Part shown: positions 21,964-30,816 of the stretch, piece by piece | Numbering within the stretch: position 1 is the stretch's first letter | Layout of the letters: every line of letters begins with the position of its first letter | DNA from: Sphingomonas radiodurans | Lineage (GTDB): Bacteria > Pseudomonadota > Alphaproteobacteria > Sphingomonadales > Sphingomonadaceae | Reading direction: 5' to 3' | DNA length: 64,000 nt | NCBI RefSeq assembly: GCF_020866845.1 | Contig: NZ_CP086594.1 | Location: forward strand, 1,922,001 to 1,986,000 | Position numbers and translations under genes: made by a program | Notes under the pieces: generated by a model | Told to the model about the DNA's origin: nothing | What the model saw: only the letters and a program-made list of their open reading frames with translations | The model's database searches: none

Positions 21964-22019
21964 GTTTTGAGCTGGAAAATTCCAGTTATGATCGGAGGGC
22001 CAGAGAAGCGGAGCGAGTG

Positions 22020-22286
22020 ATGAAAAGGTCGAAGTTTTCGGAGGCGCAGATCGCCTTCGTGTTGAAGCAGGCCGAAGACGGCACGACCGTCGGCGAGGTG
22101 TGTCGGAAGACCGGGATCAGCGAGGCGACGTTCTATGCCTGGCGCAAGAAGTATGCGGGGTTGATGCCGTCCGAGATGCGGCGGTTGCGCCAGCTTGAAG
22201 AGGAAAATGCCAAGCTGAAGCGGCTGGTCGCTGATCTCAGCCTCGACAAGGCGATGTTGCAGGATGTCGTCTCGCGAAAGCTCTGA
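22020..22286 (+). CDS. IS3-family transposase OrfA
   Basis: The 88-residue helix-turn-helix protein of the element: KFSEAQIAFVLKQAEDG, VGEVCRKTGISEATFYAWRKKY, then the leucine-zipper stretch RRLRQLEEENAKLKRLVADLSLDKAML. It binds the element's ends. A GTG immediately precedes the ATG. The frame stops at 22286, and the OrfB frame, shifted by -1, is open through this point, so an OrfAB fusion transposase is expected by frameshifting near the GCGAAAG around 22275. Confidence 0.92.
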   Translation: MKRSKFSEAQIAFVLKQAEDGTTVGEVCRKTGISEATFYAWRKKYAGLMPSEMRRLRQLEEENAKLKRLVADLSLDKAMLQDVVSRKL

Positions 22287-22360
22287 GGCCTGACCGGCGT
22301 CGGCAGCTCGTCGACGATGTTCGAAGCACCTGGCAAGTCAGCATCAGGCGGGCGTGCGGC

Positions 22361-23137
22361 GTGCTTCGGGCGGAACGATCGAGCTACCACTATCGTGGGC
22401 GCCGCGCCGATCAGGCCGATCTGAAGAAGCGGATGAGGGAGATCGCCGAGACGCGGGTGCGTTATGGTTATCGCCGCATCCATGTGCTGCTCCGGCGGGA
22501 GGGCTGGGACGTGAACGCGAAGCGGATCTATCGGCTTTACAAAGAGATGGGGCTACAGCTGCGGCATAAGCCACCGAAGCGCCGGGTGAAGGCGAAGCTG
22601 AGAGAAGGCCGCTGCGCGGCGTCTTGTTCGAATGAAGTGTGGGCCATGGACTTCGTCCATGACCAACTCGCCACGGGATCGAAGCTGCGCATCTTGACCG
22701 TGGTCGACACCTTCAGCCGGTTCTCGCCGGCGGTTGTTCCGCGGTTCGGCTTCCGGGCTCCCGACGTGGTGGAAGTGCTCGAACGGGTATGCAGCGAGGT
22801 GGGCTTCCCAGCGTCGATCCGTGTCGATCAAGGCAGCGAGTTCATCTCGCGTGACCTCGACCTGTGGGCGTATACGCGCGGCGTCACGCTCGACTTCAGT
22901 CGGCCCGGCAAGCCGACCGACAATGCGTTCATCGAGTCCTTCAACGGCAAATTCCGGGCGGAATGCCTGAACCAGCACTGGTTCATGAGCCTCGACGATG
23001 CCGTCCGAAAATGCGAGACTTGGCGCAGAGACTACAATGAGGTGCGACCGCATAGCGCCATCGGCAACAAACCGCCGATATCGCTAGTGAACCGGTCAGC
23101 GGCACATGGCCCGCCGCTGCCGGCAGAAGCTGGATGA
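22361..23137 (+). CDS. IS3-family transposase OrfB (rve integrase core)
   Basis: The catalytic half. The frame is open back to 22262, before the OrfA stop; 22361 is the first plausible independent start (GTG). Conserved blocks include RVRYGYRRIHVLLRREGW, WAMDFVHDQL (first catalytic Asp), DQGSEF (second Asp) and GKPTDNAFIESFNGKFRAECL (catalytic Glu), ending with NEVRPHSAIGNKPP. All DDE residues are present, so the element may be active. Made as the OrfAB fusion by -1 frameshifting in this family. Confidence 0.92.
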   Translation: MLRAERSSYHYRGRRADQADLKKRMREIAETRVRYGYRRIHVLLRREGWDVNAKRIYRLYKEMGLQLRHKPPKRRVKAKLREGRCAASCSNEVWAMDFVHDQLATGSKLRILTVVDTFSRFSPAVVPRFGFRAPDVVEVLERVCSEVGFPASIRVDQGSEFISRDLDLWAYTRGVTLDFSRPGKPTDNAFIESFNGKFRAECLNQHWFMSLDDAVRKCETWRRDYNEVRPHSAIGNKPPISLVNRSAAHGPPLPAEAG

Positions 23138-23150
23138 CAGCCAGCGAAGT

Positions 23151-23174
23151 GGTCCAAGAACGGGTAGCAGCTCA
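23151..23174 (-). repeat. right inverted repeat of IS407-type element
   Basis: Read on the minus strand it starts TGAGCTGCTACCCGTT and ends TTGGACC, matching the left repeat at 21939-21963 with a one-base gap. It is followed by AACATCGG, which does not repeat the left flank. Confidence 0.85.
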
Positions 23175-23225
23175 AACATCGGTCCGTCTCTGGTTGCCGC
23201 TGGATGAAAGACGGGGGTCACGTCA

Positions 23226-24030
23226 GTATGCCGCAAGGCCGAGATCAGCAATGTGACATTCTATGCGTGGCGCAAGAAGTACGCTGGGCTGACGCCACCG
23301 GAGATGCGGCGGCTGCGCCAGTTCGAAAATGAGAACGCCAAGCTCAGCTCGTTGACGATGCCAAGAGCGCCTGGTCGGTCAGCATCGGACGGGCGGAGGA
23401 GCCGCAAAAGCTCCAACGATGCGAAGCATCGATGAACAGCGGTGGAGGGGATGGACTTCGTCCATGACCAACTCGCCGTGGGGTCGAAGCTGCGCATCCT
23501 GACGGTGATCGACACGTGCAGCCGGTTCTCGCCAGCGGTGGTGCCGCGATTCAACTTCCTGGCACCAGACGTGATCGAGGTGCTGGAACGCGTGCGCGGC
23601 GAGGTTGGCTACGCGGCCTCGATCCGGTTGGATCAGGCCAGTGAGTTTGTCTCCAGAGACCTCGACTTATGGGCGGAGCAGCTAAGGCTCCGGCGACGCG
23701 CAGCGTCGCTGGACGGCTGCGGAGGGGTACATGAAGGGCGCCACGCTGGACTTCTCTAGGCCCGGCACGCCAACCGACAACGCGTTCATCGAGCCGCCCA
23801 GCGGCAAGTTCCGGGCGGAATGCCTGAACCAGCATTGCTTCATGAGCCTCGACGATGCGGTCGGGTCACGCGAGACTTGGCGTAGATACTATAACGAGGT
23901 GAGGCCACATCACGCGATCGGCAATAAGCCGCCGATAACGCCGGTGAACCGGTCAGCGGCACATGGCCCGTCGCTGTCTGCAGGCGCTGGATGACGGTCG
24001 GCCAAGTCATCCAAGACCGGGAGCAAGTCA
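23226..24030 (+). pseudogene. degenerate second IS407-type element
   Basis: A relic in the same orientation. It begins inside OrfA (VCRKAEISNVTFYAWRKKYAG), passes by deletion into OrfB at GMDFVHDQLAVGSKLRILTV, and is disrupted near 23680, where a non-homologous segment replaces the YTRG region. It then continues with ATLDFSRPGTPTDNAFIE, FRAECLNQH and EVRPHHAIGNKPP. Its right terminus (TGACTTGCTCCCGGTCTTGGA on the minus strand, ending at 24030) is of the same type as that of the intact element. It is a distinct, diverged lineage of the same IS group, with no functional transposase. Confidence 0.82.
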
Positions 24031-25787: not shown

Positions 25788-27866
25788 ATGGTCAGGAAAG
25801 CCGCGCGCGCAGCCCCTATTGTCGTACTCTTCTTCCTCGTTCTGGCCGGCGGGGGATATTGGTTGCTGTCGATTCTCGGCTGGCTCCGTCCGGCGCCGAC
25901 GATCTTCGGCTGGCAGGCGGCGCTCACCGCCGTGGCCGGCGACGGTGTGCGGGGCGAGGCGGATGGCGTGGGAGCAGCGGCGCGTTTCGGCGATCCGTTC
26001 GCGGTGGCGATGGATGCGGACGGCAATCTCTATGTCGCCGACGCAGGCGAGCGCGGCCATGTCCGCCGGATCGATGCCGATGGGGTCGTTACGACGCTGC
26101 CCGGATCGTTCGACACGCCTTCCGGCATCGCAATCGACGGACACGGCAATGTCATCGTCGCGGAGACGGGGCGGCATGCGATCCGGATGATCAGTCCAGA
26201 AGGTGCGGTCACGACGCGCGCCGGCACTGGTGCTCCCGGTTATCGTGACGGCGCGGCGGCGGGCGCGCAGTTCAACGGCCCGATCGGCGTGGCAGTCGAC
26301 GACGCGGGCAATATCTATGTCACCGACAGCTACAACGACCGCATCCGCCTGATCACTGCTGACGGGACCGTGCGTACCGTCGCCGGGCAGGATCGGCCCG
26401 GCTTTGCCGATGGGCAGGGCGCGAATGCCGCGTTCGACACGCCGACCGGGATCGCGCTGGACCGCGACGGCGCGATCCTCGTCGCAGATACCGGAAACGA
26501 CGCCGTTCGGAAGCTCAGCCCGGATGGCCGCGTCTCGACCATCGCGCGCACCGATCCCGAAGATGGCGGTGGCTTGCTCAAGGGCGCGATCGGGCTAGCG
26601 CCGACATGGGACGGCTTTCTCTACATCGCCTCCTACCAGCGCGGCCGGATCGTGCAGATGTCACCGCAGGGCGCGCTGGGTGTTCTGGCCGGGCAGGGGG
26701 CAGCGGCTCCCGGCAATGCCGAGCTGCCTCTGCTCGGCCCGTCTGGAATCGCGGTCGATCGCAAGGGCGCTCTTTATGTCGCGGACGCCTCGGCGTTCGC
26801 GATCCGCAAGCTCAGCCTTCGCACCGCCGACATGGCCCCCGAATCCGCGGGACTTAAGGCGCAGGTGCTCGACCTCGTCCGAACCCGACCGTTTCCCTGG
26901 CCGTTCGCCCCGCAATTTGGATCGCACGAGGTGGTCGGCGTCTTGGGCGAGGTGCGTGGGGATTATCAGGGGGAAAGCCGCCATCACCTCCACGCCGGGC
27001 TGGATATCAGCGAGCCGATGGGCACCACGGTCCTAGCATCGGCCGCGGAGACCGTGCGCGATCCGTTGCCGAACACGCGCGAGGTCGGCAGCCTGAACGA
27101 GGCGCTGCGGATCGATCAGCTGACCTATGTGCACATGCGCGTCGGCCGTACGCTCGATGACGAGCCGTTGGACCCGGCTCGCTTCCAACTGATCCGCGAT
27201 GCCGGGGGGCGCGTCGTCCGGGTGAGGATCAGGCGCGGTACGCGATTTGCAGTCGGCGACCGGATCGGGACGATCAACCGCATGGCGCATGTCCACCTTG
27301 AACTCGGTCCGCCACGCGGCAAGGTAAACGCGCTAGCGCTCCGGTTCCCCGGCTTGTCCGACCATGTCGCACCGCGGATCGACGACGTGCATCTCCTCGA
27401 TGTGGCGGAACGGCGACTGGTCGAAAAGGTCGACGGTCGCCTGCTCGTTTCCGCAAATGGCGGGCCGCTCGATATCGTGGTCGAAGCCTGGGATCAGGTC
27501 GACGACAACGCCCCCCGCCGTCGTCTCGGCCTCTACAAGGCAGGCTTTCAGATCATTAAGGCAGACGGCACGCCGGTTTGTGGCTTCGAACGGCCGCGGA
27601 TCACGCTGGAATTCGACCGGATGCCGCTGGCGCCCGACGCCGCGAAGATCATCTACGCGCCTGCCAGCGGCGACTCCGTCCACAGCGATCAGCGCACGCG
27701 AATGCTCTATGTCGTCAGCAACTGGGGGCGTCATGGCCAAACGCAGAAGAGGGGCTGGAATCCGGCCGGCCTGACGGCGGGCGACTATGTCATCCGTATT
27801 TTTGCTGCCGATCGGATGGGTAATGTAGCGAAGGCCGGGCGCGATCGGCCGATCACCATCCGGTGA
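25788..27866 (+). CDS. membrane-anchored NHL beta-propeller fused to an M23-like peptidase
   Basis: 692 residues. A single N-terminal transmembrane helix (about residues 9-32) should leave the rest in the periplasm. Residues about 45-345 are NHL repeats (for example GPIGVAVDDAGNIYVTDSYNDRIRLI by pattern), enough for a five- or six-bladed propeller. After a linker comes an M23/LytM-type domain: HAGLDI at about residue 402 is the HxxxD zinc motif and HVHLELG near residue 501 is the HxH motif, so all three usual ligands are present. The 100-residue spacing is slightly longer than usual. A C-terminal beta domain of about 170 residues follows. Probable peptidoglycan or peptide hydrolase with a propeller for binding; the substrate is unknown. 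Confidence 0.82.
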   Translation: MVRKAARAAPIVVLFFLVLAGGGYWLLSILGWLRPAPTIFGWQAALTAVAGDGVRGEADGVGAAARFGDPFAVAMDADGNLYVADAGERGHVRRIDADGVVTTLPGSFDTPSGIAIDGHGNVIVAETGRHAIRMISPEGAVTTRAGTGAPGYRDGAAAGAQFNGPIGVAVDDAGNIYVTDSYNDRIRLITADGTVRTVAGQDRPGFADGQGANAAFDTPTGIALDRDGAILVADTGNDAVRKLSPDGRVSTIARTDPEDGGGLLKGAIGLAPTWDGFLYIASYQRGRIVQMSPQGALGVLAGQGAAAPGNAELPLLGPSGIAVDRKGALYVADASAFAIRKLSLRTADMAPESAGLKAQVLDLVRTRPFPWPFAPQFGSHEVVGVLGEVRGDYQGESRHHLHAGLDISEPMGTTVLASAAETVRDPLPNTREVGSLNEALRIDQLTYVHMRVGRTLDDEPLDPARFQLIRDAGGRVVRVRIRRGTRFAVGDRIGTINRMAHVHLELGPPRGKVNALALRFPGLSDHVAPRIDDVHLLDVAERRLVEKVDGRLLVSANGGPLDIVVEAWDQVDDNAPRRRLGLYKAGFQIIKADGTPVCGFERPRITLEFDRMPLAPDAAKIIYAPASGDSVHSDQRTRMLYVVSNWGRHGQTQKRGWNPAGLTAGDYVIRIFAADRMGNVAKAGRDRPITIR

Positions 27867-29661: not shown

Positions 29662-30816
29662 ATGTTGGACCGGGAACTGACCGAGCAATTGCTGGATCGT
29701 GGCTATTCGCGGCGGGGTCTCGGGCGGATCGCTGCCTTGATTGGTGGGGGAACGGCGATCTCGTCGATCCTCGGCTCGGCCGCTTCGGCGCAGAGCCAGG
29801 CGGCGCGGGGGGTGGCCGGCGCGGTTCAGATCGGCGCGAACGAATGCTGGAGCGGTCCCTTTCCGATCGCCGCGCAAGCCGCATCCGAGATCATCGCGAA
29901 GGGCAACCGCTATGATCCGGCGGACGAACGCGGCAAGCTGATCCGAACGGTCGCCGCGGTCGAAAGGATGCCCGAGGATCGCGTGGCCACCTGGCCGGGG
30001 TCCGGCGATCCCCTGGTGCGCTCGGTCATCACATTCTGCTCACCGAAAAAGGGCCTGGTCACCGCCGACCCGACGTTCGAATCGGTCTGGCGCGCCGCAT
30101 CATGGCTGGAAGCGCCGGTCAGCAAGGTGCCGCTGGCCCCTGGCGCTGGCACGAGCACGCGCGCGATGCTGGCAGCAAACCCCGATGCCGGGCTCTACTA
30201 CATCTGCTCTCCGAACAACCCGACTGGTACCGTCACGCCGTTGGCGGAGATCGATTGGCTGGTCGCCAACAAGCCGGCGGATTCGGTCGTGCTGATCGAC
30301 GAGGCCTATCTTCACTTCTCCGAGTCGCCGTCGGCGGCGCACCTGGCCGCCACGCGCAACGACGTCATCGTGATGCGTACCTTCTCGAAGCTATTCGGGA
30401 TGGCCGGAATGCGCCTCGGCTTGACGTTTGCAGCGCCCGATCTGCACAAGCGAATGATGCGCTACGACGGGTTCCAGGTAACCGGGACGTTGCCGATGAC
30501 TGCGGTGGCATGCGGGAACGCCTCCTACACTCAGGCGGACTTGATCACGGCGCGGCGCAACGAAATGATCGCTGTGCGCGAGACGACGATCGCGCAACTC
30601 AAGGCGCGCGGCCTGACGGTCCATCCGAATTCGCAGGCCAACATGTTCATGGTCGATTGGAAAACCAGGCAAGCCAAGGACGTCCAGGCGGCGCTGCTCG
30701 CGCAAAAGGTGCAGATCGGTCGCAGCTGGCCGATCTGGCCAACCGTCTCGCGCGTTACCGTCGGATCCGCCAGCGAGATGAACACCTTCGTAACGGCGGT
30801 GGCGACGGTCGTTTGA
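29662..30816 (+). CDS. Tat-exported fold-type I aminotransferase (HisC-like)
   Basis: 384 residues. The N-terminus has YSRRGLGRIAALIGGGTAIS, a twin-arginine motif and hydrophobic stretch, ending in AASAQ. The mature enzyme has the class I/II fold: SGDPLVRSVITFC, SPNNPTGTV, VLIDEAYLHF, and the PLP-lysine motif MRTFSKLFGMAGMRLG. It is closest in pattern to histidinol-phosphate aminotransferase relatives, but an exported enzyme is unlikely to make histidine, so the substrate is probably a periplasmic amine or amino acid. Tat export fits a cofactor-loaded enzyme. It converges on the type VI-type regulatory operon, and its 3' end lies next to a truncated gene of that operon. Confidence 0.85.
   Translation: MLDRELTEQLLDRGYSRRGLGRIAALIGGGTAISSILGSAASAQSQAARGVAGAVQIGANECWSGPFPIAAQAASEIIAKGNRYDPADERGKLIRTVAAVERMPEDRVATWPGSGDPLVRSVITFCSPKKGLVTADPTFESVWRAASWLEAPVSKVPLAPGAGTSTRAMLAANPDAGLYYICSPNNPTGTVTPLAEIDWLVANKPADSVVLIDEAYLHFSESPSAAHLAATRNDVIVMRTFSKLFGMAGMRLGLTFAAPDLHKRMMRYDGFQVTGTLPMTAVACGNASYTQADLITARRNEMIAVRETTIAQLKARGLTVHPNSQANMFMVDWKTRQAKDVQAALLAQKVQIGRSWPIWPTVSRVTVGSASEMNTFVTAVATVV

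Follow-up and report, generated by a model that had tools for sequence, protein, structure and literature searches.

An NHL propeller, a predicted M23-like zinc peptidase domain and an Ig-like domain combined in one protein of Sphingomonas radiodurans

In peptidases of family M23 the zinc is held by an HxnD motif together with the second His of an HxH motif, while the water is acted on by the first His of HxH and perhaps by a further His located some 30 residues upstream (His260 in LytM); in addition, an Arg has been proposed to stabilise the transition state in EnpA and in Csd3 (PMC9662197). The same review of M23 architectures counts more than 1,000 of them in InterPro, its text naming neither NHL nor propeller (PMC9662197), and no description of an NHL plus M23 architecture was found in the literature searched, most subscription journals lying outside it. 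To this extent a sequence-only reading of the DNA considered here was justified in calling a propeller an unusual partner for an M23 domain, although, as described below, the architecture is no one-off but recurs and is fairly widespread.

The gene and its domain layout

The gene lies in a stretch of 64,000 nucleotides of Sphingomonas radiodurans DNA (the window), in which the open reading frame occupies exactly positions 25788..27866 of the + strand and encodes 692 amino acids. Its start codon is aligned with M1 in most full-length relatives. The features are as follows, with the evidence for each in brackets.

25788..27866, + strand: whole gene, NHL propeller plus M23-like domain plus Ig-like domain (open reading frame, full-length homologues)
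25800..25874, + strand: predicted N-terminal membrane anchor or uncleaved signal helix, residues 5-29 (hydrophobic helix in the AlphaFold2 model)
25914..26822, + strand: six-bladed NHL beta-propeller, residues about 43-345 (Pfam NHL, AlphaFold2, Foldseek)
26898..27347, + strand: M23/LytM-like metallopeptidase domain, residues about 371-520 (VIA-align, hhalign, PF01551 in relatives)
26991..27005, + strand: HxxxD motif HAGLD, with H402 and D406 as putative zinc ligands (invariant, 46/46)
27132..27134, + strand: H449 (in YVHM), counterpart of LytM His260 (invariant, 46/46; role as in PMC9662197)
27150..27242, + strand: enlarged loop that separates H449 from the HxH strand (residue spacing)
27288..27296, + strand: HxH motif HVH, with H501 as catalytic residue and H503 as zinc ligand by analogy (invariant, 46/46)
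27360..27863, + strand: C-terminal Ig-like beta-sandwich, residues about 525-692 (model, VIA-align)

The AlphaFold2 model of the full-length protein has a pLDDT of 89.4 and a pTM of 0.87, the latter suggesting a defined packing of the domains, and the order of secondary structure in it runs from an N-terminal helix through six blades and the M23 region to a beta-sandwich. All of the parts claimed in the sequence-only reading, namely an N-terminal anchor, a propeller, an M23-like domain and a C-terminal beta domain, are thus recovered in this one reading frame, the first as the helix predicted by AlphaFold2 at residues 5-29 and the last as residues about 525-692 in the models and in VIA-align. 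No lipobox match was found in the N-termini of those relatives that were examined, the N-terminus being hydrophobic, and a periplasmic location would seem probable for the protein.

For the propeller, the Pfam NHL match (E 3.3e-30, 103 bits against a cut-off of 20) comprises five stretches, in keeping with the five or so repeats that had been read from the sequence; the AlphaFold2 model, however, has six blades, with pLDDT mostly above 90. Blades 1-5 have four strands each and lie within residues 70-301, while the sixth (strands 318-344) would appear from the model to be closed by an N-terminal strand at residues 44-50. When the propeller was submitted to Foldseek, the designed six-bladed protein Pizza6 was matched at a TM of 0.87-0.88 by target length, and further matches were to the NHL domains of PknD, TRIM71 and the teneurins, so that both the Pfam score and the fold are those of an NHL propeller.

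At the other end of the protein, VIA-align matched the C-terminal sandwich at Z about 7-8 to the carbohydrate-binding domain of Wzt and to the C-terminal regions of PorU and BT4663, while Big_13 and Y_Y_Y gave weak Pfam matches in some family members. This likeness to Ig-like sandwiches, seen in a model, may reflect a common arrangement only.

The M23 fold and the active-site residues

Routine profile scoring fails to identify the M23 domain of this particular protein. PF01551 (Peptidase_M23) reaches just 12.5 bits (E 0.18) on it, against a cut-off of 28.7, and the gene is absent from the seven M23 loci listed by a whole-genome search with PF01551; the sequence-only reading had therefore seen something that such scoring misses. 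Among solved structures, the C-terminal sequence used singly as query yielded no useful match, and the corresponding profile no more than a weak one to M23 (E 0.0011). Among the relatives, however, 42 out of 46 members have a PF01551 match with E <= 0.1, the best of these being 1.4e-7, and hhalign against M23 proteins of the same genome gave a probability of 94.6 and an E of 7e-8 (for a single pair); in profile comparison with three such proteins the HxGxD, YxHM and HxH regions align.

The C-terminal half modelled alone has a pLDDT of 89.7, and when this model was compared with solved structures using VIA-align the best forty rows were all of M23/LytM fold, with Z running from 12.2 down to 7.8 (Csd3 12.2, PrgK 11.6, ShyA 11.5, EnvC 11.5, DipM 11.4, lysostaphin 11.0, LytM 10.4). 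The superpositions have an rmsd of about 3-4 angstrom over 115-130 residues, and the alignments to these roughly 40 chains cover the residues of both the HxxxD and the HxH motif, which bears indirectly on whether the motifs come together in a single site. Foldseek returned no match for the same C-terminal model at E <= 0.001, probably because the model holds two domains, which VIA-align separated.

The conservation of individual residues was followed in an alignment of 46 family members, with identity to the query down to 44%. H402, D406, H449, H501 and H503 do not vary among the 46, while histidines elsewhere in the protein are mostly poorly conserved, which argues that the motifs are not there by chance. 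The HxxxD and HxH motifs that had been picked out beforehand correspond to HAGLD (H402 to D406) and HVH (H501-V-H503), and the description of the site as zinc-complete holds for the putative zinc ligands; what had been overlooked is H449 (YVHM), the histidine upstream of HxH, with which the predicted catalytic His pair (H449 and H501) is present as well. With the fold, the hhalign result, the PF01551 matches of relatives and the invariance of these residues all in agreement, the protein belongs to M23 by residues and fold, even though this member falls under the Pfam cut-off.

Two further aspects of this region deserve comment. H380, E381, R398 and H400 (window 26925-26987) are also invariant, and lie directly before HxxxD but outside the M23 core set; they are possible substrate-binding or transition-state residues, and by analogy with the Arg of EnpA and Csd3 it could be R398 that acts as a transition-state stabiliser. 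Secondly, the spacing between H449 and H501 is 52 residues as against about 30 in LytM (the latter figure from PMC9662197), i.e. approximately 20 longer, implying that the substrate may differ.

Family distribution and genomic surroundings

Searches for homologues used the C-terminal 346 residues as query. A homologue is present in 10 of 151 Sphingomonas genomes (including this one), at one copy per genome, and a species-level genome collection yielded 56 loci, the genera represented being Sphingomonas, Stenotrophomonas, Pseudoxanthomonas, Lysobacter, Duganella, Roseateles, Paucibacter and one Massilia bin. Within Lysobacteraceae a profile search found it in 45 of 198 genomes (11 of 54 genera), whereas among 398 genomes drawn from the phylum strong matches were confined to the Sphingomonas family and Lysobacteraceae; searches of viral, phage and plasmid sets turned up no relative. 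The NHL part is present in every one of the 46 aligned members, always in one protein, so that the three parts of the architecture travel together. The family is conserved but patchy, occurring in Sphingomonas, in Lysobacteraceae and in some Burkholderiales, three proteobacterial groups in all, and the patchiness argues for an accessory role. In the tree the Sphingomonas members are split from those of Lysobacteraceae and from Duganella (100/100), the closest relative of the window sequence being that of Sphingomonas sp. PL-96 (81%).

Two oddities were encountered among the homologues. A record labelled Bacillus subtilis SK7B5 (L064) carries one that nests in the Stenotrophomonas clade and has Stenotrophomonas-like neighbours, and is probably contaminated or wrongly labelled. 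At another locus a second stretch of 187 aa resembling the C-terminal half (L030:8826-9386) lies on the same contig as the homologue, and is either a partial duplicate or an effect of assembly.

The gene stands by itself in the window, flanked by an M48 protease that is transcribed divergently and by a TauE/SafE permease. A conserved operon partner was considered and rejected: neighbours are common within Stenotrophomonas and within Duganella, not between clades, and among the loci compared no neighbour was found that is conserved across clades or that points to the cell wall. Elsewhere in the window (22017-23994) there are, by reading only, frames resembling an IS3-type transposase (22017-22286 and 22361-23137) and a second, broken-looking copy of closely similar protein sequence (23442-23994). 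The N-terminus of a class I/II aminotransferase (PF00155) at 29662-30816 resembles a twin-arginine signal (SRRGLGRIAALIGGG...AASAQ); if it is one, this PLP enzyme would be placed in the periplasm.

Proposed function and comparison with known systems

The reading to be preferred, at a probability of roughly 0.65, is that the protein is an inner-membrane-anchored periplasmic zinc endopeptidase of M23 (LytM) fold acting on peptidoglycan. The enzyme would cut the peptide cross-links or the stem peptides, with zinc held by H402, D406 and H503 and the water activated by H449 and H501, while the propeller and the Ig-like domain would frame the catalytic domain, either by tethering it to some partner or component of the wall, or by restricting access to its groove. 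The sequence-only reading had suggested that the enzyme may be aimed at a specific protein or glycan ligand; neither a ligand nor a conserved neighbour nor any sign of binding turned up for this.

An alternative, which we consider unlikely but worth serious attention, is that an M23-fold zinc peptidase is indeed present but cuts protein or some other non-peptidoglycan peptide, bound by the propeller and the Ig-like domain. Propellers and Ig-like domains do usually bind proteins or glycans, and the longer H449-H501 loop, the absence of cell-wall neighbours at the loci, and the wider range of substrates taken by LasA-type M23 enzymes (PMC9662197) could all be accommodated in this way. Set against these points, the closest solved folds are those of peptidoglycan enzymes or of their regulators, and the membrane anchor would hold the protein beside the wall.

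It is appreciably more doubtful that the protein is a non-hydrolytic regulator of wall enzymes, on the pattern of EnvC or NlpD, with its M23 fold used for binding. The LytM domains of EnvC and DipM are among the top fold matches, and propeller scaffolds would suit protein-protein contacts; however, the mark of regulators of this type is an incomplete catalytic set (PMC9662197), whereas here all five residues are found and are invariant, a pattern not easily explained unless the protein is catalytic. Finally, the suggestion that the motifs resemble M23 by chance, in a domain of some other kind, draws on the 12.5 bits (E 0.18) of PF01551 in the window protein, but is so improbable as to need little discussion, since the fold comparison, the profile alignment, the Pfam matches seen in relatives and the invariance all agree, and the VIA-align comparison in particular speaks strongly against it.

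Returning to the preferred reading of a wall endopeptidase, a distinctly speculative elaboration would have the propeller act as a sensor gating the M23 site, such that the membrane-tethered enzyme is switched on when a fragment of the wall or a partner in the periplasm binds. If this is true, such M23 enzymes of Sphingomonas, Lysobacteraceae and some Burkholderiales would share a novel means of control. Short of that, the family adds a conserved M23 subfamily missed by Pfam scoring in this genome, and its pairing of domains may bear on how wall hydrolysis is targeted or controlled in Gram-negative bacteria. What appears to be new is the combination of NHL propeller, M23 and Ig-like domains; the parts themselves are ordinary, and interest is limited because each of them, as well as the probable chemistry, is already known.

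Among known proteins, those M23 proteins of Bacteroidota that end in an Ig-like domain carry an HFHxGIDI motif and an insert before HxH; they are not known to have a propeller, and a relation between them and the C-terminal half of the present protein is no more than a lead (a DNA pattern for HFHxGIDIK had no match in viral contigs). The LytM-domain wall regulators EnvC and NlpD have the LytM fold in common with it (by fold match in the case of EnvC), differing in the catalytic set as described above. The M23 endopeptidases LytM, lysostaphin, ShyA and Csd3 have the same fold, HxxxD, upstream His and HxH, but sequence similarity to them is low (14-21% in structural alignments) and the H449-H501 spacing is longer here; furthermore, in place of LysM, SH3b, OapA or Csd3-type domains there is here a propeller on the N-terminal side and an Ig-like domain on the C-terminal side. 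Likewise, NHL repeats and the propeller fold are shared with PknD, TRIM71 and the teneurins, but in PknD the propeller accompanies a kinase, TRIM71 is a ubiquitin ligase and the teneurins are large surface proteins, while in the present protein it is joined to an M23 domain.
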